Shown: positions 19,888 through 52,330 of the stretch, in pieces
How positions within the stretch are numbered: position 1 is the first letter of the stretch
How the letters are laid out: each line of letters begins with the position of its first letter
Origin: Sphingomonadales bacterium
GTDB taxonomy: Bacteria > Pseudomonadota > Alphaproteobacteria > Sphingomonadales > Sphingomonadaceae
Direction: 5' to 3'
Assembly (NCBI GenBank): GCA_027490095.1
Contig: JAIXYT010000030.1
Coordinates: forward strand, 1 to 53,585
DNA: 53,585 nt
The notes under the pieces: model-generated
Told to the model about the DNA's origin: nothing
Databases searched by the model: none
What the model saw: the letters and a program-made list of their open reading frames with translations, nothing else
Program-made: the position numbers and the translations under genes

Positions 19888-20597
19888 GCCAGCTTGCGCG
19901 CCAGGGTTTTCTGCCGTCGCGCGGCTGCCCCAACCAGCCCGAAGCCTGCGATCATCAGCGCCCAGGTGCCGGGCTCGGGGATCGTGGGGATCGGGTTCAC
20001 GACCGATCTGGTCCCGAGCGTCACGTCATCGATCGCAAAATCGTTTCCGGCGGCAGTCGTGTTCTCGTTCACCAGCGAAAGGACAACCGAAGAGGCTGCT
20101 CCGCTGTTGAAGTTCGAGGTGAGCCCGTACCACACCCCGGCCTCGGACGCCGGCAGAGTGCGCGTGGCGAGGTCGATCGAGGGGTCGCCGTCGAGCGAAA
20201 TCCGGAATGTGAGGACGGGATCGCTGTTCCCGCCGGTATAGGCGGGCGTGCAGCAGACGTTCATCACGAACGCCTCGAAGAAATAGGTTGTGTCCGACGA
20301 CAACGCGATCGACCCGGACTGCCAGACGATCTGGCCGGCGGTCGGCGCGCCATTCCCGACGAACATCTGGCCGGTGCCCGACGTGTGATCGCCACGCGAC
20401 AGGAAGAACCCGTTCCACGGGAAGGGATTGGAGCGGACGGTGTACTGGGCCTCGGCCCCGTTGCCGAAGGGCGAATAGGAATAGCCCGAGGTGAAGCCGC
20501 TGTTGCCGGCCTCAAAATCGCCGTTGGTGACGAGATTGGCCGCGCTGACGGCCGACGACGCGCAAAGCGCGGCAGTGATGCATGCAATTCTGAACAT
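19884..20597 (-). CDS. PEPxxWA-CTERM sorted exoprotein (first of three)
   Basis: 237 residues: signal peptide (residues 1-19), then a beta-sandwich-like domain starting NLVTNGDFEAGNSGF (21-35), typical of carbohydrate-binding-like NGDFE domains, and a C-terminal PEP-CTERM tail: PEP at 207-209, TWALMIAGFGLVGAAA, then the basic RRQ. Such proteins are recognised by an exosortase at the inner membrane and end up in the envelope or the exopolysaccharide matrix. No exosortase is in this window. The gene is inserted against the strand between pyrF and trpF, which are otherwise normally adjacent. Start ATG 20597 has AGGGGAAGGG before it; a sigma-70-like promoter is at 20659-20688. Confidence 0.9.
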   Translation of the reverse strand: MFRIACITAALCASSAVSAANLVTNGDFEAGNSGFTSGYSYSPFGNGAEAQYTVRSNPFPWNGFFLSRGDHTSGTGQMFVGNGAPTAGQIVWQSGSIALSSDTTYFFEAFVMNVCCTPAYTGGNSDPVLTFRISLDGDPSIDLATRTLPASEAGVWYGLTSNFNSGAASSVVLSLVNENTTAAGNDFAIDDVTLGTRSVVNPIPTIPEPGTWALMIAGFGLVGAAARRQKTLARKLA

Positions 20598-28996: not shown

Positions 28997-29773
28997 ATGC
29001 GTTTCATTCCCGGTTTCCTCACCATTGCAGCAACAGCTGTTGCTGTCGCATCGCCGGCTGCGGCCGCTCTTCCGCTGGAGGGGGCCATCAGTGTCGACTG
29101 GTACACTGTTCAGCCCGGGCCGGTGAAGGCCAACCGGGATTTCCAGAACACCTGCTGCGGCGAACTCCGGCCCGACATGGTGCTGGGCACGCTGGGGCCC
29201 AACGGCCGGCCGATGTACAATGCGGCAAGCGCAGGCCCGGTGATCAAGGGCGTGTCGGGCACGGGCGAGCTCCAGTGGTGGACCCCCGGCACCACCGCCG
29301 GCGGCGACGTCGTCACCTCGACCGGCAGCGAGATAGTGTTCCTGCCGTTCAGCGACACCACGCTGTTCCCGACCAATGGAGCGGGCGGCTCGAACGGCGG
29401 CAACGCCGGTTTCCAGACGGCCCACTTCTACTTCGGCATCGGCAACTTCTCGTCGGACAACCTGCTGATCAGCTTCAACTTCGAAGCGGATGACGACCTC
29501 TTCCTGTTTGCCGACAGCAAATATGTGGGCGGGCTGGGTGGGGTGCACCCGATTACCGCCTCGGGGCCGTTCAGCTTCGTGGCTGCGCCCGGCACGACGC
29601 GGGTCGACATCTTCTTCGCAGACCGTCACACGACGGAGTCGGCCCTGAAGATGCGCGCGACCTTTGAAGTGCTGCCGGGCGGGGTGATTCCCGAGCCCGC
29701 CACCTGGGCGCTCCTCATCACCGGCTTCGGCCTTGTCGGCATGGTGGCCCGGCGCCGCCCGCTGGCCGCCTGA
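28997..29773 (+). CDS. PEPxxWA-CTERM exoprotein with fibro-slime-like domain (second of three)
   Basis: 258 residues: signal peptide to about A24, a long mature domain, then PEP at 232-234, TWALLITGFGLVGMV and a basic ARRR end. Residues about 143-225 (HFYFGIGNFSSD, ADDDLFLFADSKYVGGLGGV, VDIFFADRHTTESALKM) follow the fibro-slime/PA14-like domain pattern, where a buried LGGVH and a DIFFAxRHTT strand are diagnostic, suggesting a carbohydrate- or adhesion-related matrix protein. Two adjacent Cys (53-54) may form a disulfide. It is monocistronic between its own sigma-54 promoter (28932-28948) and a strong terminator (29790-29825). Confidence 0.9.
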   Translation: MRFIPGFLTIAATAVAVASPAAAALPLEGAISVDWYTVQPGPVKANRDFQNTCCGELRPDMVLGTLGPNGRPMYNAASAGPVIKGVSGTGELQWWTPGTTAGGDVVTSTGSEIVFLPFSDTTLFPTNGAGGSNGGNAGFQTAHFYFGIGNFSSDNLLISFNFEADDDLFLFADSKYVGGLGGVHPITASGPFSFVAAPGTTRVDIFFADRHTTESALKMRATFEVLPGGVIPEPATWALLITGFGLVGMVARRRPLAA

Positions 29774-43133: not shown

Positions 43134-45548
43134 TCAGACTGCGGCCACTGCGCCTGCCAATTCCGACAAGAGGGCGTCTTCCGCCATTCCGCGCACACCC
43201 TCTCGCCCGATCTGCAGCAGGGCGGGCACGGCCAGCGGGCTCACCCGGTCCAGATGCTGGACCAACAGCTCCGATTCGGCCCGCTTCAGCAGCCGATCCA
43301 ACCGCGCGAGGTCGGTCAGCCGGGCGCTCGCCTCGGCCCAGGCCGCTTCCAGAAGCAGGTGCCCGGGCTCGTGCTTCTGCAGCACATCATAGATGAGATC
43401 AGTCGACACCGTCATCGCCCGCCCGCTCTTGGCGCTCCCGGGCTGCTGGCGTTCGACTAGGCCCGAGACGATGGCCACATCGCGGAACGCACGCCGCAGG
43501 AAGGGCGTCGCCTTGATCCAGGCCTCCAGTTCGTCTGCCACGATGTCGCCGGTCAGCAGCGCACCGGGATCCGCCACCCGCTCCAGCCCCCAGACGCCCA
43601 GCATGTAATCGGTCGCGACAAACCCCAGCGGCTGCAATCCGCGCCGCTCCATCCGCTGGGTGAGCAGCATGCCGAGTGACTGGTGCGCGTTGCGCCCCTC
43701 GAAGCCGTAGAGGATAAGATATTCGCGCCCATCGCGCGGAAATGTCTCGGCCAGCAGCCGATCGGCCGGCGGCAGGATGGACTGCGCCTGCTGCAGCGCC
43801 AGCCATTCCTGCACGTCGGCCGGCATCCGCCCCCAGGCCTGCGGGTCGGCGATCATCCGGCGCACCCGCTCGGCAAGGTTGGTGCTGAGCGGCATCCGGC
43901 CCCCGACATAGGTCGGGATCGAAGGCTCCCCCCGGCTCAGGCGCGTGTAGAGGTCGGTCTCCGACGCGCCTGTCACTTCCAGCACCTGGCCTGCGAACAG
44001 GAAGCGGTCGCCGATGCGCAGCTGGCTGCCGAACCACTCCTCCACCTGCCCCAGCGCCCGCCCGCCGCCTGCCCTGCTGCTTCCCAGGCGAACGCTCATC
44101 GTGGGCGCCTCCACGATGACGCCGGCATTCAATCGGTGCTGCAGGGCAAGGCGGGGGTGCCGGATCCGCCAGCGCCCGGGCGCCTCCTCCACCAGCCGGG
44201 CGTAGCGCTCGTAGGCCTTCAGTGCGTAGCCGCCCGTCGCGATGAACTGCAGAACCCGGTCGAAATCCGTGCGCGACAGCCCGGCATAGGGCGCTGCTGC
44301 GCGCACCTCCTCGAACAGAGCTGCCGCCTCGAACGGCCCGGCGAGCGCCACGCCCATCACATGCTGCGCAAGCACATCGAGCCCGCCTGGCCGATGATCC
44401 TCCGCGTCGAGTTCGCCGGCCTCGACGGCGTCCATGCACGCCAGCGCCTCGAGATACTCGAAGCGGTTGCCCGGCACGATGACCGCCCGGCTCGCCTCGT
44501 CCAGACGGTGGTTCGCTCGGCCCACCCGCTGCAGCAGGCGCGCGGCTCCTTTGGGCGCCCCCATCTGCACCACCAGGTCGACGTCGCCCCAGTCGATCCC
44601 CAGATCGAGGCTGGAGGTCGCGACCACGGCCCTGAGCCGGCCCTCGGCCAGTGCCGCCTCGACCTTCTGCCGCGCCTCGGGCGCAAGCGAGCCGTGGTGC
44701 AGCCCGATTGGCAGCCCCGTGTCGTTCTCGGCCCAAAGGTCGTTGAAGACCAGCTCGGCAATCGCGCGCGTGTTGACGAAGACGATTGCCTGCCGAGCCC
44801 CTTCCAGCAGGCGCACCACCTCGCGCGCGGCATGACGGCCGTTGTGCCCGCTCCAGGGGATGCGGCCGTCGGGCACGAGGATCCGTATGTCGGGCGGAAC
44901 GGCCGCCGCGCCTTCCACGACCACCGCATCACCGCCGGGCGCAAGCCAATGCGCCATGGCAGGCGGATCGGCGACCGTTGCAGAAAGGCCGACCAGCCGC
45001 AGCCGCGGGTTCAACCGGCGCATCCGGGCCACCGCCAGCGCCAGCAGGTCGCCGCGCTTCGTCGCGGCAAAGGCGTGGATCTCGTCGACGATCAGCGTTT
45101 CCACGGTCGCCAGAATCCGGTCGGCCTCGGGCCAGGTCAGCAGCAGGCTCAGGCTTTCGGGCGTCGTCAGCAGGATGTCGGGGGGAGTCTCGCGCTGCCG
45201 CTTCTTGGCCTCGGAACTGGTGTCACCGGTGCGGGTCTCCACCTTCAGCGGCAAGCCGACCTCGCGGATCGGCACCATCAGGTTGCGCTCGACATCGGCC
45301 GCCAGCGCCTTCAGCGGCGAGACATAGAGCGCCTTGCATCCCGGCCGGAGACCCAGTTCGGCAGATTGGGCAAGCACCGGCAGAAAGCCCGCCAGCGTCT
45401 TGCCCGCGCCTGTTGCCGCCACCAGCAGGGCATGACGTCCGGCCCGTGCAGCCGCCAGCATTGCCAGCTGGTGCGGACGCGGCTGCCAGCCACGCCCCGC
45501 GAACCAGCGGTCAAGGACATCGGGAATCGCAGGCACGGCCGAGGACAT
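43134..45548 (-). CDS. Lhr-like ligase-associated DEXH helicase
   Basis: 804 residues, superfamily 2 helicase. ATGAGKT (45-51), TTPESLSLLL, VDEIHAF (DEIH box), GLSATVAD, VFVNTRAIAELV and GRANHRLDEA are the helicase motifs in order; the Lhr-type winged-helix and C-terminal domain follow. This length and domain layout is that of the DNA-damage-response helicase usually clustered with an ATP-dependent DNA ligase, an exonuclease and a phosphoesterase; none of these partners is in this window. It acts on DNA or RNA:DNA repair intermediates. Start ATG 45548; it follows the secreted-protein gene by 23 bp. Confidence 0.92.
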   Translation of the reverse strand: MSSAVPAIPDVLDRWFAGRGWQPRPHQLAMLAAARAGRHALLVAATGAGKTLAGFLPVLAQSAELGLRPGCKALYVSPLKALAADVERNLMVPIREVGLPLKVETRTGDTSSEAKKRQRETPPDILLTTPESLSLLLTWPEADRILATVETLIVDEIHAFAATKRGDLLALAVARMRRLNPRLRLVGLSATVADPPAMAHWLAPGGDAVVVEGAAAVPPDIRILVPDGRIPWSGHNGRHAAREVVRLLEGARQAIVFVNTRAIAELVFNDLWAENDTGLPIGLHHGSLAPEARQKVEAALAEGRLRAVVATSSLDLGIDWGDVDLVVQMGAPKGAARLLQRVGRANHRLDEASRAVIVPGNRFEYLEALACMDAVEAGELDAEDHRPGGLDVLAQHVMGVALAGPFEAAALFEEVRAAAPYAGLSRTDFDRVLQFIATGGYALKAYERYARLVEEAPGRWRIRHPRLALQHRLNAGVIVEAPTMSVRLGSSRAGGGRALGQVEEWFGSQLRIGDRFLFAGQVLEVTGASETDLYTRLSRGEPSIPTYVGGRMPLSTNLAERVRRMIADPQAWGRMPADVQEWLALQQAQSILPPADRLLAETFPRDGREYLILYGFEGRNAHQSLGMLLTQRMERRGLQPLGFVATDYMLGVWGLERVADPGALLTGDIVADELEAWIKATPFLRRAFRDVAIVSGLVERQQPGSAKSGRAMTVSTDLIYDVLQKHEPGHLLLEAAWAEASARLTDLARLDRLLKRAESELLVQHLDRVSPLAVPALLQIGREGVRGMAEDALLSELAGAVAAV

Positions 45549-45571: not shown

Positions 45572-46207
45572 TCAGTCGCGCACCTCCATCCGGCGGAAGC
45601 CCTGGCCAGCGGGCGCACCGGGCGGTGACAGCAGCTCGCCCTTCACCTCCAGCGGCCAGTCGCGGAAGTCGCGCACACCCAGATCCCGGGGATCGAGCCG
45701 GAACCGATACCTGCCCGCCTTCGCGGCATCGATCGGGAAGACGGGCGAGTCGACGTCGAACACGGAAATGTGGAAACGCACCGCCACGGGGGTCCGCCCG
45801 TCAAGCTCGGCCTCCAGCCAGTCGGCCCGGGTGGTCCCCTTTTCCAGACTGCCGTCCTTCAGGCGCACCTCGACTTCGATATTGGGTATCGGCCGGCCGT
45901 CGGGTCCCTCCAGGAGCACCGCGAACACACCCGGTTCCCCGGCTTCGGCCGCCACGGCTGTCCACGCCGGAGGCTTCGGTGCAGGGTCCGTCGTCAGCAG
46001 GACCCGTCCGCCCTCCAGACGCCAGCGCCCTTCGGCCTGCTCGTCAAGGGCGCCATAGCTGAGCGCGTAGCGGAAGCGGCCATCGGCACCGAGTTCAAGT
46101 CCGCCGGCTGCTTCACGGACCCCCGTCAGGGCATATTGCCCGACCAGAGGGGACGAAACGGCCGCCGCCGCAAGCACCAGAACCGGCAAGAAAGGGGCCC
46201 CCGACAT
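45572..46207 (-). CDS. Secreted protein with Ig-like/regulatory-like beta domain, unknown function
   Basis: 211 residues. MSGAPFLPVLVLAAAAVSSP is a signal peptide; GQYALTGVREAAGGLELGAD and GRFRYALSYGALDEQAEGRW begin a beta-rich domain, and GRPIPNIEVEVRLKDGSLEK resembles a carboxypeptidase-regulatory-like (CarboxypepD_reg) sheet. I recognise no named family. ATG 46207 follows GGGCGG. It stands 23 bp before the helicase on the same strand, so co-transcription is likely, but a functional link is not evident. Confidence 0.65.
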   Translation of the reverse strand: MSGAPFLPVLVLAAAAVSSPLVGQYALTGVREAAGGLELGADGRFRYALSYGALDEQAEGRWRLEGGRVLLTTDPAPKPPAWTAVAAEAGEPGVFAVLLEGPDGRPIPNIEVEVRLKDGSLEKGTTRADWLEAELDGRTPVAVRFHISVFDVDSPVFPIDAAKAGRYRFRLDPRDLGVRDFRDWPLEVKGELLSPPGAPAGQGFRRMEVRD

Positions 46208-46441
46208 CCGCCCATGCTGCCCGAAACCTGCCCGATCCGAAAGCCGTATCGGGCATCGCCGCCTGCAACACCGGCCCCTATTCGCACTTGCAACATGATT
46301 TTGCTTGGACCGCGCCGCCCGCCACCGTAAGATGAGGCACCTCAAGGCGAACGGTCCGCCACAGCGCATCGCGCGGACGTCTCGAAGTGACAACGTCCGG
46401 ATTGCGGAAGGGCAGACCGCAACAGGGCATGGGGGGCTGGC

Positions 46442-47923
46442 ATGGAACGTCACCTGATGAACACGCCGGCGGACACGGGGCCGCCTGACGCGGCGACGAC
46501 CAGGCCTCGGCCGCTTGCCGTCGATCTGGACGGCACCCTCATACGCACGGACATGCTGTTCGAACTGTTCTGGTCTGCCATGTCGCAGTCTCCGGCAAAA
46601 GCGGTCTGGGCTCTGGGGGGTTTGTCGGGGGGCAAGGCTGCCCTGAAGGCGCGACTGTCCGAGGCCGGCCAGGTTGCCCCCGAAAGCCTTCCCTATTGCC
46701 CGGATGTGATGGGGCACCTGACGGCGCACCGCGAAGCCGGCGGTGAAGCCATTCTCTGCACCGCCTCTCCCCAGGCGGTTGCGGACACGATTGCGGCCCA
46801 TCTCGGCCTGTTCGACGCAGTCAAGGGCTCGTCGCCGGTTCTGAACCTCAAGAGCGACGCCAAGGCCGACTTCCTCGTCGAACGCTATGGGCAGGGCGGC
46901 TTCGACTATGTGGGCGACTCCCACGCCGACCTGCCGGTCTGGGCACGTGCAAGCCGCGCCATCGTGGTGGCGCCCGATGCCGGGCTGGCGCGCAAGGTCA
47001 GATCACAGGGCGGCGAGGTCGAGACGATCGTCCGCCAACCGGAAGGCCTCAAGCCTTATTGGCGGGCGATGCGGCCCCACCAGTGGGCCAAGAACCTGCT
47101 GGTCTTCGTGCCGGCGCTGGCTGCCCACCGCCTGACCCCGGAGGCATTGCTGCAGGCGAGCCTTGCCTTCATCAGCTTTTCGCTGGTCGCCTCGGCGATC
47201 TACATCATCAACGATCTGCTCGATCTCGCCGCAGACCGGGCACATCCCAGAAAGCGCATGCGGCCCCTCGCCAGCGGAGCGCTGCCGATTGCGCATGGAA
47301 CCCTGCTGTCGCCCCTTCTGCTGATCCTGGGTTTGCTGGCCGGGGCGGCGACCGGCCAACCGGCCTTCCTTGCCATCCTGCTGCTCTACATCGGCCTGAC
47401 AACCGCCTACTCGATGTGGCTGAAGCGCAAGCTGATCGTCGACATCTTCGTTCTCGCCGGGCTCTACACGATCCGGGTGCTTGCAGGCGCTGCCGCAGTC
47501 CAGGTGGTCCCCTCCATCTGGCTGATCGGATTTTCCATGTTCATCTTCCTCAGCCTTGCGGCGATCAAGCGGCAGGCGGAGCTCGTCGACGGTGTTCGCT
47601 CCGGGCGCGCACGCGCGTCGGGGAGGGCCTATTATGTGAACGATCTGCCGATGATCTCGATGATCGCAGTCACGGCCGGCTATGTGGCCGTGCTGGTCTT
47701 TGCCCTCTACATGTCGACGCTCGGGGTGCAGCGGCTGTACGGGAACCCGATGTTCCTCTGGGGGGTCGCCCCCATCCTTCTGTACTGGATTACCCGGATG
47801 ACGATGATGGCCCACCGCGGGCAGATGCACGACGACCCCATCGTCTATGCCGTCAAGGACCGGATAAGCCTGATCTGCATGGCGTTGATGGGCGGGTTGT
47901 TCGCTTCGGCAGCGCTGCTGTAG
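46442..47923 (+). CDS. HAD phosphatase-UbiA prenyltransferase fusion (polyprenyl-phosphoribose synthase-like)
   Basis: 493 residues in two parts. Residues 25-205 are a HAD hydrolase (VDLDGTLIRTD with D28/D30; DYVGDSHADLPVW as motif IV). From RPHQWAKN (211) on it is a UbiA-type prenyltransferase with about nine helices, the NDxxDxxxD site NDLLDLAADRAH at 257, the RKRMRPL stretch and a second site in KLIVDIFVLAG. The UbiA half most resembles decaprenyl-phosphate phosphoribosyltransferase (Rv3806c of mycobacteria, NoeC of Azorhizobium), which joins PRPP to polyprenyl phosphate; the HAD half could then remove the 5-phosphate. Both steps in one chain is my inference. GtrA follows after 8 bp. Confidence 0.8.
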   Translation: MERHLMNTPADTGPPDAATTRPRPLAVDLDGTLIRTDMLFELFWSAMSQSPAKAVWALGGLSGGKAALKARLSEAGQVAPESLPYCPDVMGHLTAHREAGGEAILCTASPQAVADTIAAHLGLFDAVKGSSPVLNLKSDAKADFLVERYGQGGFDYVGDSHADLPVWARASRAIVVAPDAGLARKVRSQGGEVETIVRQPEGLKPYWRAMRPHQWAKNLLVFVPALAAHRLTPEALLQASLAFISFSLVASAIYIINDLLDLAADRAHPRKRMRPLASGALPIAHGTLLSPLLLILGLLAGAATGQPAFLAILLLYIGLTTAYSMWLKRKLIVDIFVLAGLYTIRVLAGAAAVQVVPSIWLIGFSMFIFLSLAAIKRQAELVDGVRSGRARASGRAYYVNDLPMISMIAVTAGYVAVLVFALYMSTLGVQRLYGNPMFLWGVAPILLYWITRMTMMAHRGQMHDDPIVYAVKDRISLICMALMGGLFASAALL

Positions 47924-47931
47924 ACGGGACC

Positions 47932-48381
47932 ATGCCCGCGCCACAGGCCTCCACACCCGTTCCGCCTTCGTGGCGCCAGCGTCTTCTGGACGACGGCCGG
48001 GTCCGCTTCCTCATCGCAGGCGGATTTGCCGCCGGCCTTGCCTGGACCCTCCGGTTCGGGTTCAGCCTCTTCCTGCCCTATTGGGCGGCCGTGGCCCTTG
48101 CGACCGCAGTCAGCCTTGTGGCGGGATTCGGCATCTACCGCTCGTTCGTTTTCCGGTCGAACGGCGGTCATCTGGGTCGAACGATCTCCGCCTTTCTCCT
48201 CGTCAATGGCGTGGGTGCAGGCCTCACCGTTCTGGTGGCGGTCCTGGCGGCCAGGGGCATCGCAGCCCTGGGCCTGCCCGCAGGTCCGGCCGAAGCTGTC
48301 GGGCACGGCATCGGCATAGCGGTCGCCGCGGTTTTCAATTTCCTTGCCCACAAGCACTGGACGTTCAAGGGCAGCGCGTGA
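47932..48381 (+). CDS. GtrA-family membrane protein
   Basis: 149 residues, four membrane helices (RFLIAGGFAAGLAWTL, WAAVALATAVSLVAGFGIYR, then two more) and the end FNFLAHKHWTFKGSA, which is the GtrA signature. GtrA proteins move or organise polyprenyl-phosphate sugars; the mycobacterial homologue Rv3789 belongs to the decaprenyl-phosphoarabinose pathway. Here it lies between the HAD-UbiA fusion (8 bp) and a GT-C-like protein (TGATG overlap), fitting a flip step between synthesis inside and transfer outside. Confidence 0.85.
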   Translation: MPAPQASTPVPPSWRQRLLDDGRVRFLIAGGFAAGLAWTLRFGFSLFLPYWAAVALATAVSLVAGFGIYRSFVFRSNGGHLGRTISAFLLVNGVGAGLTVLVAVLAARGIAALGLPAGPAEAVGHGIGIAVAAVFNFLAHKHWTFKGSA

Positions 48382-50114
48382 TGCAGCACAAGAGGCCTGC
48401 CATCCATCCCGGGGGCGCGATCGTTTCCGTGGCCGTCCAACGTGCCGAAACCATCGGCTACCTGATCCTTTTCGCGATCCTGTCGCTGCACATGCTGGCG
48501 GCTCTGGTCCAGCTGGCTGGAGGGCGCTTCACAGCTCCGCTTGCCGCTGCCCTGCTGCTTGCGGCATGCGCGTCCGCCCATCTGCTGGCCCGGCTGGACG
48601 GCCTGCGGCCGGCGGCGGCGGAGTGGGTTGCCGCAATCCTGATCACCTCGGCCGCGCTGCTTCTGGGCGGCAGCGTCTTCGACTTCACCGTCGACGGAAA
48701 CGCCTACCACTTCCAGGCGATCGACGCCTATGCGCACGGCTGGAACCGCCTGCATGCGATCCTGCCCGACGCCCCGTCCGAGCTGCCGAGCCATATCTGG
48801 TCCATGACCTATCCGGCGGGTCACTGGCTGGTGATGGCGGTTCCGATCGCTACCGGCCTTCCCGATGAAGCGGCGAAGGGCATCTGGATCGCGCTTGCCG
48901 TTGCGCTTGTGCTGCTTGGCGGCGCGATCCTCTCCCGCCTCGGGATTTCGGCCCGCTTCGCACTGCCGGCCGCTGCCCTCTCCGTCGCGAACCCGATCTT
49001 CCTGCAGCAGATGGCGACCAGGCTGAACGACGGCATCGTGTCCCTGCTGCTTTTCGCGTTCGCCGCACTTGCGCTGTCGGCAGTTGCGCTTCGGGATCGC
49101 CGCGCCCTTGCCGGGCTGGTGCTGGTCGTCATCCTGGTGCTCAACACCAAGTTCTCGCTTGTCCCGATCACCGTCGCCTTCTGCGGCATCGCCTGCCTTC
49201 TTGCGTATCGCACTGTCGGCCAGGCCCGCGCTGTCCGGCTCGGGGGCGTGCTGCTGGCGGCGGGCATCACCGGTCTGCTGGTTGTCGGCTTCTCGCCCTA
49301 TGTGGTGAACACCGCGCAACATGGCCACCCGTTCCACCCGGTGATGGGCCCGAACAAGACGGACATCATGTCCTTCAACACGCCGGAACGTCTGGCCGAG
49401 ATCGGCTATCCGCTGAATTTCTGGGCGTCCGTGCTGGCAGTCACCGACAAGCAGGATGTCAGGCTCAAGCCGCCGTTCCAGGTCACCCGCCGCGAGATTT
49501 ACCTGTCCGGCTATCCCGATCCGCGCATCGGAGGGTTCGGCCCCCTGTTTTCCGGCATTCTGCTGCTTGCCGTCATCACGGCAGGGGCCTGTCTTCTGAA
49601 CCGCCCGCTTTCACGAGGTCAGTCGGTCGCGCTGGCCGTTGCGCTGCTGCTGCTTCCCGTGGGGGCCCTGTTCCCCGAAGGCTGGTGGGCCCGATACGTT
49701 TCCTTCCTCTGGCTGGTCCCTGTTGCGATCGCGCTTGCGGGCGCCCAGTCCTGTGCCCGGCTTCCCCAGCTGCTTGCGGCCGTCGTGCTTCTGGTGATGG
49801 CGGCCAACAGCGCGATGGTCTTCGCGGCCGCCGGCAAGCGAAGCTATGAACAGACCATGCTGATCCGCCAGGAGCTCGCGCGCCTGAAGGCCTCGCCAGA
49901 ACCTGTCCGCATCGACTTCGGGATCAACCAGTCCCTACGGGCAATGGTGCAGCGAGCCGGCATTCCGCACCAGGAAGTCAGCTTCGCCAAGGACGGCCCC
50001 TGCCCCGGCGCAATCCGCCTCGCCGGATCGATCAACGACCTGCAGGGGTTCCGATGCCCTGCAGAGCCGGCAATCGACGCTGCCGCTAAAGCCCCAGAAC
50101 CGTCTTCGCGATGA
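48381..50114 (+). CDS. GT-C-like polytopic membrane glycosyltransferase
   Basis: 577 residues, about 12 membrane helices, with a first periplasmic loop containing FDFTVDGNAYHFQAIDAYAH, where the acidic residues before an HxxA-type helix suit a GT-C catalytic site, and a periplasmic tail of about 90 residues. I infer that it uses the polyprenyl-phospho-sugar made by the two genes before it to decorate an envelope glycan. The start overlaps the gtrA-like stop by 1 nt. Its last nine codons (AKAPEPSSR) are encoded by the left 50-bp repeat, i.e. antisense to an acyl-CoA dehydrogenase end. Confidence 0.65.
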   Translation: MQHKRPAIHPGGAIVSVAVQRAETIGYLILFAILSLHMLAALVQLAGGRFTAPLAAALLLAACASAHLLARLDGLRPAAAEWVAAILITSAALLLGGSVFDFTVDGNAYHFQAIDAYAHGWNRLHAILPDAPSELPSHIWSMTYPAGHWLVMAVPIATGLPDEAAKGIWIALAVALVLLGGAILSRLGISARFALPAAALSVANPIFLQQMATRLNDGIVSLLLFAFAALALSAVALRDRRALAGLVLVVILVLNTKFSLVPITVAFCGIACLLAYRTVGQARAVRLGGVLLAAGITGLLVVGFSPYVVNTAQHGHPFHPVMGPNKTDIMSFNTPERLAEIGYPLNFWASVLAVTDKQDVRLKPPFQVTRREIYLSGYPDPRIGGFGPLFSGILLLAVITAGACLLNRPLSRGQSVALAVALLLLPVGALFPEGWWARYVSFLWLVPVAIALAGAQSCARLPQLLAAVVLLVMAANSAMVFAAAGKRSYEQTMLIRQELARLKASPEPVRIDFGINQSLRAMVQRAGIPHQEVSFAKDGPCPGAIRLAGSINDLQGFRCPAEPAIDAAAKAPEPSSR

Positions 50115-50135
50115 TGGTCTTCTGCACCTCGTTGG
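50086..50135. repeat. 50-bp direct repeat, left copy (attL-like)
   Basis: Identical over 50 bp to 51113-51162. It begins exactly at the stop codon (CTA on this strand) of an acyl-CoA dehydrogenase reading frame and includes the 3' end of the GT-C-like gene on the plus strand. Beyond 50135 the two copies match only 9 of the next 14 bases. Together with the right copy it flanks a low-GC segment; the repeat-to-repeat distance is 1,027 bp. Confidence 0.9.
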
Positions 50136-50165
50136 CACCCTAGAAGATCTGCTCAGCCTGCGATT
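50086..50165 (-). pseudogene. Acyl-CoA dehydrogenase 3' remnant
   Basis: Read on the minus strand this gives AEQIF, a TAG stop, then GANEVQKTIIAKTVLGL and a stop. It aligns codon for codon with AWTIFGGTNEVQK... of the intact gene at 51113. Homology upstream of the 50-bp identical core is weak but real (ATC TTC, then TAG GGT GCC against GGC GGC ACC). It is either the cassette-side half of an attachment site or the last trace of a second, tandem acyl-CoA dehydrogenase gene. Confidence 0.65.
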
Positions 50166-50272
50166 CTGTGCAATAACGACATGTACATTTCCAACCTCTC
50201 AGCACTCAAGCCATAGCTTAGGGTGGACACATTACATCGCTTCCATTAGCAAAATGTGAATTCTAACCCAGT

Positions 50273-50288
50273 GATAACAAGTGTTATC
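50273..50288. promoter_or_regulatory. Perfect 16-bp palindrome upstream of the third PEP-CTERM gene
   Basis: GATAACA-AG-TGTTATC, perfect 7-bp arms, 72 bp before the ATG. It is followed by TTGACGAATCGATCAA (a second imperfect dyad that includes a consensus-like TTGAC -35). It is a good candidate operator for a dimeric regulator; which one is unknown. Confidence 0.5.
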
Positions 50289-50360
50289 TTCCGGTCAGAA
50301 TAAGGTTGACGAATCGATCAACCCAGTGGCATCAATGGGCTCGGATTTGGAGTTTCTGAT

Positions 50361-51104
50361 ATGAACGTCCATCTGATTACTGGTCTCACACTTTTTTGCT
50401 TTTCAACACCAGCGTGGGCGGGATGGGGCGCGGCTGTTTTCGGAGGTGAGACAAGGCATACGCTGACATTGCAGGTTTGGACGAACGAGAAAAATGCAGA
50501 TTTTCTTGTCTCAAGAAACGATTTTTTTGGCTTCAAGTCACCAGATTTTTCTGACGGTCAAGATTTTTCATTCAGCACATACAGTTTTGACCGGCCGAGT
50601 GATGACGCTATTAGCGCGGCCTTTCGACAGTACGAACGGCTCCGCTGGGCGATCACTTTGGAAGCAAAGCAGAAGCTTTTTCGCGAAGAAAATGAGTACG
50701 GCTACCAATCAATATCAAGCAGCTTATCATTTGATAGTGTAATTACCACTCTGACGAATAAAGGTTCAGATGGGGTATGGCTACAAACGCGGCCAATCGC
50801 ATTTTATCGCGGTGGAGCAGGATTTAGATCAACAGAGTTATTGCTGGAAGCGAATTTTCTGAATCCCGCGCTCTTTGACATCAGGCAGGCTTATCATCAT
50901 TATGGTTGGACAGTTCGACCTGTGGGTATTTTCGTGCCATCGGGTGAGACTGTAAATCTTAGACTTAACGGCATAATGACGGTCACGATTGCCAATGGAA
51001 TTCCTGAGCCGAGCGCTTGGGTCATGATGATAGCAGGCTTTGGTTTGTGCGGCGCCCAGCTGCGCAGAGGCGCTTTTGGGCTGGGAAGCGCGCTTGGCAG
51101 GTAG
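50361..51104 (+). CDS. PEPxxWA-CTERM exoprotein in a low-GC insert (third of three)
   Basis: 247 residues: signal peptide (NVHLITGLTLFCFSTPAWA), an unrecognised, aromatic-rich mature domain (about 21-210), then PEP at 215-217, SAWVMMIAGFGLCGAQL and a basic RRG end. Here the sorting helix ends with an extra FGLGSALGR. Sampled lines of the gene are about 35-43% GC against about 67% in the neighbours, so it is a recent acquisition. It lies alone between the 50-bp direct repeats. No close-by exosortase; it must rely on one elsewhere. The ribosome site is poor (GGAG at about 13 nt). Confidence 0.88.
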   Translation: MNVHLITGLTLFCFSTPAWAGWGAAVFGGETRHTLTLQVWTNEKNADFLVSRNDFFGFKSPDFSDGQDFSFSTYSFDRPSDDAISAAFRQYERLRWAITLEAKQKLFREENEYGYQSISSSLSFDSVITTLTNKGSDGVWLQTRPIAFYRGGAGFRSTELLLEANFLNPALFDIRQAYHHYGWTVRPVGIFVPSGETVNLRLNGIMTVTIANGIPEPSAWVMMIAGFGLCGAQLRRGAFGLGSALGR

Positions 51105-51112
51105 GTTGAAAC

Positions 51113-51162
51113 CTAAAGCCCCAGAACCGTCTTCGCGATGATGGTCTTCTGCACCTCGTTGG
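51113..51162. repeat. 50-bp direct repeat, right copy (attR-like)
   Basis: The last 50 bp of the intact acyl-CoA dehydrogenase gene, stop codon included, identical to 50086-50135. On its left, inside the insert, the similarity ends at once. Confidence 0.9.
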
Positions 51163-52330
51163 TGCCGCCGAAGATCGTCCAGGCGCGGCTGTTGAGGTAG
51201 GTCGGGGTCGCGAGCTGCGCCTCGCGGCTGCCGACCGGTTCGGGCGCGCTGTTGCCGTAGAGCGGGCGCTCGGGCGGCAGCTGCAGACCGAGCGGGCCGA
51301 AGATGTCCACCGCCAGCTCGTCGATCTTCTGCCTGAGGCTCGAGGACACCAGCTTCACCAGGCTCGTCTGCGGCCCCGGGCGGCGGCCGGCCTTCAGCTC
51401 GGCCAGAATGCGCAGTTCCGTCGTCTCCAGCGCCTGCGCCTCCAGCTCCAGCGCCACCAGCCGCGCTTCGACGCTGGGCAGATGGCCATAGGCGCCGTTG
51501 GTGCCGCTGGGCTGGCTGTCGGCTGCTGCCTTCAGCCGTGCGATGTCGGCGAGAAGCCGCGGCGCCGCACAGCTGCCGCCGCGCTCGTTCTCGAGCAGGA
51601 ACTTGGCGATGGACCAGCCCTGCCCCTCTTCGCCGATACGGTACTGTTCGTGCGTCTCGGCATCGTCCAGGAACACCTGGTTCACTTCATGGTCGCCGGC
51701 CAGCGTAATGATCGGCCGGATGGTGATGCCCTTCTGCTTCATCGGCACCAGCAGGAAGGTGATGCCCTCCTGCGGCTTCACGTCCGGGTTGGTCCGCACC
51801 AGGCAGAACATCCAGTCGGCGTAATGGGCGTGCGTCGTCCAGATCTTGGACCCGTTGATGCGGTAGGAGCCCGTCGCAGGGTCCAGCACGGCGCGCGTCT
51901 TCAGGCTCGCGAGGTCCGAACCGGCGCCCGGCTCGGAATAGCCCTGGCACCACTTCTCGCTGCCATCCAGGATTTTCGGCAGGAAGCGCGCCTTCTGCTC
52001 GGGCGTGCCGTAGGTGTAGATCACGGGCGCGACCAGCTTCAGCCCCAGCACGCTGAGCGCCGGCGCATCAGCGAGCGCGCATTCCTTCTCGAAGATGTAG
52101 CGCTGCACCGGGTCCCAGCCCGTGCCGCCGGCCTCCTTCGGCCAATGATAGGCAAGCCAGCCCTTCTCGTGGAGGATTCGCTGCCATTCGTCGCCGATGT
52201 CGGGCTCCACGAACACCGAGGGCGTGTTGCGCGCGCCCTCGCGGATATGCTCCGGCAGGTTTTCGGCCAGGAAGCTCCGCACCTCTTCGCGGAATGCCAG
52301 CTCCTCAGGCGAAAAATCCATGTGCATCAT
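51113..52330 (-). CDS. Acyl-CoA dehydrogenase
   Basis: 405 residues, FAD-dependent alpha,beta-desaturation of an acyl-CoA. GYSEPGAGSDLASL and WTTHAHYADW are the FAD/substrate signatures, and the end IFGGTNEVQKTIIAKTVLGL is typical. Start ATG 52330 overlaps the ThuA-like stop (ATGA) and has GGAGC before it. The substrate class (long-chain, steroid side-chain or other) cannot be told. The last 50 bp are duplicated at 50086-50135. Confidence 0.93.
   Translation of the reverse strand: MMHMDFSPEELAFREEVRSFLAENLPEHIREGARNTPSVFVEPDIGDEWQRILHEKGWLAYHWPKEAGGTGWDPVQRYIFEKECALADAPALSVLGLKLVAPVIYTYGTPEQKARFLPKILDGSEKWCQGYSEPGAGSDLASLKTRAVLDPATGSYRINGSKIWTTHAHYADWMFCLVRTNPDVKPQEGITFLLVPMKQKGITIRPIITLAGDHEVNQVFLDDAETHEQYRIGEEGQGWSIAKFLLENERGGSCAAPRLLADIARLKAAADSQPSGTNGAYGHLPSVEARLVALELEAQALETTELRILAELKAGRRPGPQTSLVKLVSSSLRQKIDELAVDIFGPLGLQLPPERPLYGNSAPEPVGSREAQLATPTYLNSRAWTIFGGTNEVQKTIIAKTVLGL

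Follow-up and report, generated by a model that had tools for sequence, protein, structure and literature searches.

A foreign PEP-CTERM gene between two copies of an acyl-CoA dehydrogenase gene end: a candidate recombination scar in a Sphingomonadales genome

Introduction

How did a low-GC stretch of about 1 kb come to lie between two identical copies of the 3' end of a metabolic gene, with the genes on both sides still readable? This question is raised by positions 50086-51162 of a 53,585-nt stretch of DNA from Sphingomonadales bacterium (assembly GCA_027490095.1, contig JAIXYT010000030.1), referred to below as the window. The duplicated end is that of an acyl-CoA dehydrogenase (ACAD) gene, the enclosed DNA carries a gene for a PEPxxWA-CTERM protein, and on the far side lies a gene for a membrane protein labelled GT-C in an earlier reading made from the letters alone (the sequence-only reading). 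That reading proposed a minimal integrated cassette. We favour, at roughly even confidence, a different origin: the scar of a single-anchor homologous recombination at the ACAD gene end.

Two copies of a gene end enclose foreign DNA

The window contains an exact direct repeat of 50 bp (50086-50135 and 51113-51162, 1027 bp start to start), and both copies equal exactly the final 50 nt of the ACAD gene, TAG stop codon included. Since the longest exact repeat expected at the window's length and composition is about 17 bp, this repeat is not due to chance; the second-longest exact direct repeat of the window measures 22 bp and is near-tandem. The right copy completes the ACAD gene, which lies intact on the minus strand (51113-52330) and encodes 405 aa with three Pfam acyl-CoA dehydrogenase domains; the GT-C gene takes its stop codon (TGA, 50112-50114) from the left copy. 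For comparison, 80 related ACAD loci were collected from other species; at 76 of these the downstream sequence covers 1.5 kb or more. Their last 50 nt match those of the window ACAD at 46 positions at best and at 38 on average; as the two window copies agree at 50 of 50 positions, they share a recent common origin.

Likeness to the ACAD gene goes on beyond the left 50-mer. In the adjoining 14 nt (50136-50149) 9 positions match, the last 7 of them consecutively, and 5 changes are clustered within the 7 nt directly after the repeat. Among random pairs of 14-mers drawn from the insert and the ACAD gene, 9 matches occurred in 0.2% of draws (empirical chance 0.002) and a run of 7 in 0.005% (5e-5). 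Translated in the frame of ACAD, the left copy yields I-F-stop-G-A-N-E-V-Q-K-T-I-I-A-K-T-V-L-G-L-stop, with the altered extension giving I-F-stop-G-A before NEVQKTIIAKTVLGL. By eye, the resemblance is gone past 50168. Because the likeness extends past 50 bp, the left copy has the look of an altered ACAD end, somewhat more than 50 nt in length and with an in-frame stop, rather than of a sharply bounded core.

The insert between the copies (50136-51112) has a GC content of 47.5%, in surroundings of 66-70% (66% for 46208-50085, 67% for the ACAD gene). Its sole family-matched gene, at 50361-51104 on the plus strand, encodes a protein of 247 aa that matches the PEPxxWA-CTERM family NF035944 with 40.9 bits (cut-off 35) and PF07589 with 24.4 bits (20.7). 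Two smaller overlapping open reading frames (ORFs) of 72 and 82 aa, the only others of at least 60 aa starting between the copies, had no Pfam match. The genome holds 33 matches to NF035944, 32 of them above the cut-off, this gene included. The gene has a GC content of 48.4% and a GC at third codon positions (GC3) of 46%, whereas 30 of the 32 others, namely those with loci, range from 60 to 74% in GC (mean 65.4%, sd 2.9) and from 73 to 90% in GC3; each of these genes was taken to begin at the first start codon in frame behind a stop, which makes lengths and GC approximate. By this difference in composition the gene is foreign. Thus far the sequence-only reading holds: the two identical ACAD ends, the two readable outer genes, the single PEP-CTERM gene and a palindrome of the insert's own (50273-50288) are all present. 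Its estimate of about 40% GC was too low, although the insert does lie far below its surroundings.

The locus in related genomes

The closest named locus, L186, comes from Sandarakinorhabdus sp. MAG-62_40 (contig JAIMKW010000004.1), with identities of 91% for ACAD, 88% for ThuA and 93% for SDR. In L186 the ACAD gene is followed after 6 nt, on the same strand, by a gene homologous (64% over 188 aa) to the window gene at 45572-46207 (minus strand, without Pfam family). The L186 order is accordingly 45572-46207 gene, ACAD, ThuA, SDR, without the 4905 bp of 46208-51112, and on this comparison that stretch is extra in the window's lineage. It comprises the genes for a UbiA-family prenyltransferase, a GtrA-family protein and GT-C, the left copy, and the PEP-CTERM gene.

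This comparison calls for caution, as the 45572-46207 gene neighbours ACAD at only one of the 80 loci (L186). It also evolves fast, the copies of L186 and of G001-G003 being about equally distant from that of the window (55-61%), so that its orthology rests on position. In G001-G003, which belong to the same genus and are three of eight further relatives, the homologue adjoins an Lhr-like helicase gene, as it does in the window (helicase at 43134-45548). In the other five (G004, G005, G059, G067 and G141) the helicase is present and no homologue was found beside it; in L186 the homologue is present and the helicase is not beside it. Behind the ACAD gene of G141 and G059 lies what we take to be a TonB-dependent receptor gene, and apparently this is so in G004 too.

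The sequence-only reading predicted an empty site in relatives, with the GT-C gene joined directly to the ACAD end. Such a site was found nowhere: the one locus that comes near it, L186, has the 45572-46207 gene joined to ACAD without GT-C, and what is missing from it is all of the 4.9 kb rather than 1 kb only. None of the 80 loci had a match to the PEP-CTERM, UbiA, GtrA or GT-C protein in the sequence covered downstream of ACAD. In a search of the 4.9 kb against eight genomes other than that of L186, the ACAD end was found in seven; one genome had short patches of UbiA, two had a single short stretch of GT-C apiece, and the PEP-CTERM part was matched in none of the eight.

A recombination scar as the favoured origin

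A single-anchor recombination would have proceeded as follows. Before the event, the GT-C gene would have stood directly behind the ACAD gene. The DNA that came in would have derived from a close strain and carried the end of the same ACAD gene with a PEP-CTERM gene behind it, and a crossover within the shared ACAD end would have joined the two. The other, non-homologous end may have been joined by illegitimate recombination, or the incoming DNA may have circularised and entered by one crossover. The incoming copy would now complete the ACAD gene, and the old end, displaced by about 1 kb, would persist as a stub still joined to GT-C. The exact end of the repeat at the stop codon would be due to the flanks of the two strains' ACAD copies differing from there on. 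We infer the donor arrangement, the order of events, with the GT-C group arriving first, and the enzymes involved.

Several features of the locus speak for this origin. A homologous anchor adjoins foreign DNA, and the repeat is exactly the last 50 nt of ACAD. The likeness past the 50 bp (9/14) is as expected for a stub of ACAD rather than for a bounded core. Furthermore, the arrangement in L186 indicates that the flanks of the locus belong together. The recent common origin of the two copies also speaks for it, as do three negative results given below: no integrase-like ORF in the insert, no other use of the core and no match to Ku.

Other points weigh against it. Among the 80 loci, all from other species, we found neither a PEP-CTERM gene beside ACAD without the left stub nor a GT-C gene directly joined to ACAD. 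Identity to three relatives along ACAD-ThuA-SDR revealed no sharp recombination edge. The 5 changes in the 7 nt after the repeat are not explained by the plain displacement of a copy of the same allele. Moreover, the same geometry would be expected from site-specific integration.

Alternative origins

Site-specific integration is the strongest of the alternatives, possible as an explanation and second best to the recombination scar, though in our judgement unlikely. A small circle would have been put into an attachment site at the ACAD 3' end by a tyrosine recombinase that worked in trans or has since disappeared, the two 50-mers then being attL and attR. An integrase-type element would leave identical repeats in direct orientation, foreign cargo and, at one side, a restored gene end, as observed here. 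Of the cassette proposed by the sequence-only reading, the foreign one-gene segment between gene-end copies therefore stands, but its integrase-type nature found no support. The insert contains no integrase-like ORF; the search did not extend to integrase genes in the rest of the genome. When up to 3 mismatches were allowed, four genomes out of 148 contained the core, that of the window included, and in each of the other three it is one ACAD end. No viral contig had an exact match to 44 bases of the core, and no second copy of the own ACAD end was detected at the 80 loci in the sequence covered. No use of the core around other cargo was found, the 148 genomes, the viral contigs and the 80 loci offering nothing beyond ACAD ends. 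In addition, a weak test that looked for perfect arms of 6 bp, or for arms of at least 7 bp with one mismatch, found no inverted arms within the core, and the partial likeness past the core is at odds with a bounded site.

Plasmid matches to the DNA of 49800-51180 occurred in eight records, each a single match confined to the right ACAD end (query positions 1315-1381); four of the eight places are annotated as ACAD and the rest are unannotated. The PEP-CTERM protein matched by its tail only in two Polymorphobacter plasmid records and at two loci in viral contigs, and no match was found among phages. The 28-residue reading of the left copy matched 167 plasmid records at E values up to 10 (best match 76% over residues 4-28), and 12 of the 15 matches listed are annotated as ACAD. 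The matches of this reading confirm an ACAD end and name no source. In titles and abstract openings, a literature search found no case of horizontal transfer of PEP-CTERM genes in Sphingomonas or of integrases using acyl-CoA dehydrogenase attachment sites. We judge it distinctly improbable that the PEP-CTERM gene forms a mobile one-gene cassette, inserted at the ACAD 3' end by an enzyme supplied in trans; if such a cassette existed, surface-protein genes would be shuffled singly between strains.

A second, different ACAD gene could also have adjoined the first at one time, the left copy being what remains of it after gene conversion homogenised its last 50 nt and all other parts were lost. This possibility, which the sequence-only reading had raised as loss of a tandem paralogue, we consider improbable. 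It draws some support from the residues themselves, as Q-I-F-stop-G-A-N-E-V-Q is nearer than the intact T-I-F-G-G-T-N-E-V-Q to ACADs of known structure, e.g. QIYEGTNEIQ (weak matches, best E value 0.1). However, in the sequence covered at the 80 loci no second ACAD gene lies less than 4.3 kb downstream; at six loci distant ACADs, with 20-24% identity, occur 4.3-5.1 kb away. When the stub was compared with a set of ACAD ends, those of the genome's other 26 PF00441 matches included, its best score was against the intact neighbouring gene; past 50168, by eye, no resemblance to ACAD is left.

A foreign fragment might instead have been captured where the chromosome had broken with staggered ends, the ACAD end being duplicated to either side when the 50-nt overhangs were filled in. 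By reasoning, such a capture would yield perfect duplications around a random fragment. We regard it as highly unlikely, since no match to Ku was found in the genome (96.6% complete), and it leaves both the exact end of the duplication at the stop codon and the likeness beyond the repeat unexplained.

Least likely of all is a contig misjoined or rearranged at the shared 50-mer, an artefact that the sequence-only reading had allowed for: the genome is in 51 contigs and the repeat lies 2.4 kb from a contig end, but the flanks of the extra 4.9 kb adjoin in L186 and so belong together, and an assembler would not be prone to create a second 50-mer with four unique flanks. Both alternatives named by the sequence-only reading, the tandem paralogue and the misjoin, thus fare worse than its integrase cassette.

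The PEPxxWA-CTERM gene and its surroundings

Most likely, the gene at 50361-51104 makes an exported PEP-CTERM protein that would be handled like the other PEPxxWA proteins of the genome. To the eye, the N-terminus resembles a signal peptide and a GGAG stands shortly 5' of the start codon. An exosortase is likely to be encoded in the same genome because 32 NF035944 matches lie above the cut-off. The first 208 aa appear to be without convincing relatives, as the protein itself aside they gave weak matches in only two genomes among 384 others of the class (E values 0.005 and 0.009). The whole protein had matches in 86 of 297 other genomes of the family; nearly all of the matches listed are C-terminal, and the single longest one (36% over residues 115-236) likewise covers mostly the tail. 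The predicted structure is unusable at a mean pLDDT of 31.5. The last 36 codons (50997-51104) have a higher GC3 than the body of the gene (23/36 versus 92/212, p = 0.03, a weak difference), and the gene may perhaps consist of a host-like tail on a foreign body.

Upstream of the gene lies a low-GC region (50150-50360) with a perfect palindrome of 16 bp, GATAACA-AG-TGTTATC, at 50273-50288. Among 225 loci the palindrome was present in 8, all of them copies of this place; it is possibly an operator brought in with the foreign gene. No Rfam family matched within 46000-51400. A scan of 50050-51200 returned 3 promoter-like sites with 1.0 expected, none of them just upstream of the PEP-CTERM gene on its own strand, and no terminator.

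Exact repeats of 16-18 bp flank other PEP-CTERM genes of the genome at 2 of 30 loci and were absent from 28, each locus covering about 1.5 kb around the signal, where long genes leave little left flank. Two more PEPxxWA-CTERM signals occur in the window, at 19911-19982 (minus strand) and 29687-29758 (plus strand), in genes of normal GC (66-67%). At a further locus (L113, around G000:C30:35594-36673) two closely spaced PEPxxWA-CTERM genes of this genome have a common exact stretch of 42 bp near their signals.

The GT-C gene and the extra region

The GT-C gene (48390-50114, plus strand, start codon not settled) ends within the left copy. Its protein matched no family above the cut-off, had no match in any of 58 other genomes, and was matched in one of 396 other genomes of the family at 31% identity. 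A distant homologue aligns over residues 93-561, ending just short of the left copy, and itself continues for 25 residues; for this reason the gene looks near-complete.

Upstream of GT-C in the extra region (46208-51112) lie the genes for the UbiA-family prenyltransferase with a HAD domain (46442-47923, plus strand, NF006088) and for the GtrA-family membrane protein (47932-48381, plus strand, 149 aa, PF04138 with 46.9 bits, cut-off 26.1). This trio, with the HAD-fused UbiA, occupies 46208-50114 at a host-like GC of 66%, between genes that adjoin in L186. It was probably a separate, earlier acquisition, and perhaps serves a prenyl-linked sugar modification. In alignments of the left boundary of the 4.9 kb, the score against the ACAD end was 12 (shuffled maximum 17) and that against the left-copy region was 15 (shuffled maximum 13).

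Relation to known systems

As a recombination scar, the locus would be ordinary in kind, a fresh example of a known process and of modest interest. Its footprint is unusually clean, and it suggests that a bacterium may gain one foreign gene for a surface protein with no mobile element dedicated to the task and with the neighbouring genes unbroken. Were the event driven by an integrase, the locus would represent a very small mobile unit for PEP-CTERM proteins.

Integrative elements that use the 3' ends of protein genes leave direct repeats, and the gene is restored by the element's copy. In contrast to these, the locus described here has no integrase on the insert, no other user of the core was found, and the insert spans only about 1 kb. 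Minimal mobile elements carry variable cargo between conserved genes and are moved by homologous recombination, in cases without a duplicated gene end, whereas here the gene end is duplicated. With other PEPxxWA-CTERM proteins (NF035944) the encoded protein shares a C-terminal sorting signal scoring above the cut-off; it differs from them in the low GC and GC3 of its gene and in the two weak matches of its first 208 aa.

Displacement of 3' ends by homology-facilitated illegitimate recombination is proposed for the T6SS arrays of V. cholerae, and displacement of Rhs tips is cited there (PMC5361080). Like those arrays, our locus would combine an anchor in a shared gene, new cargo and an old 3' end moved back as a stub; unlike them, it has ends identical over 50 nt, a metabolic gene as the anchor and one PEP-CTERM gene as cargo, with the donor state unseen. 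A second report describes the entry of circularised incoming linear DNA, and of small non-replicative plasmids in E. coli, by a single crossover (PMC3240628). From such integration, two copies of the homologous stretch would be expected around the insert, as at our locus, although here a single crossover is suggested by the anatomy alone.

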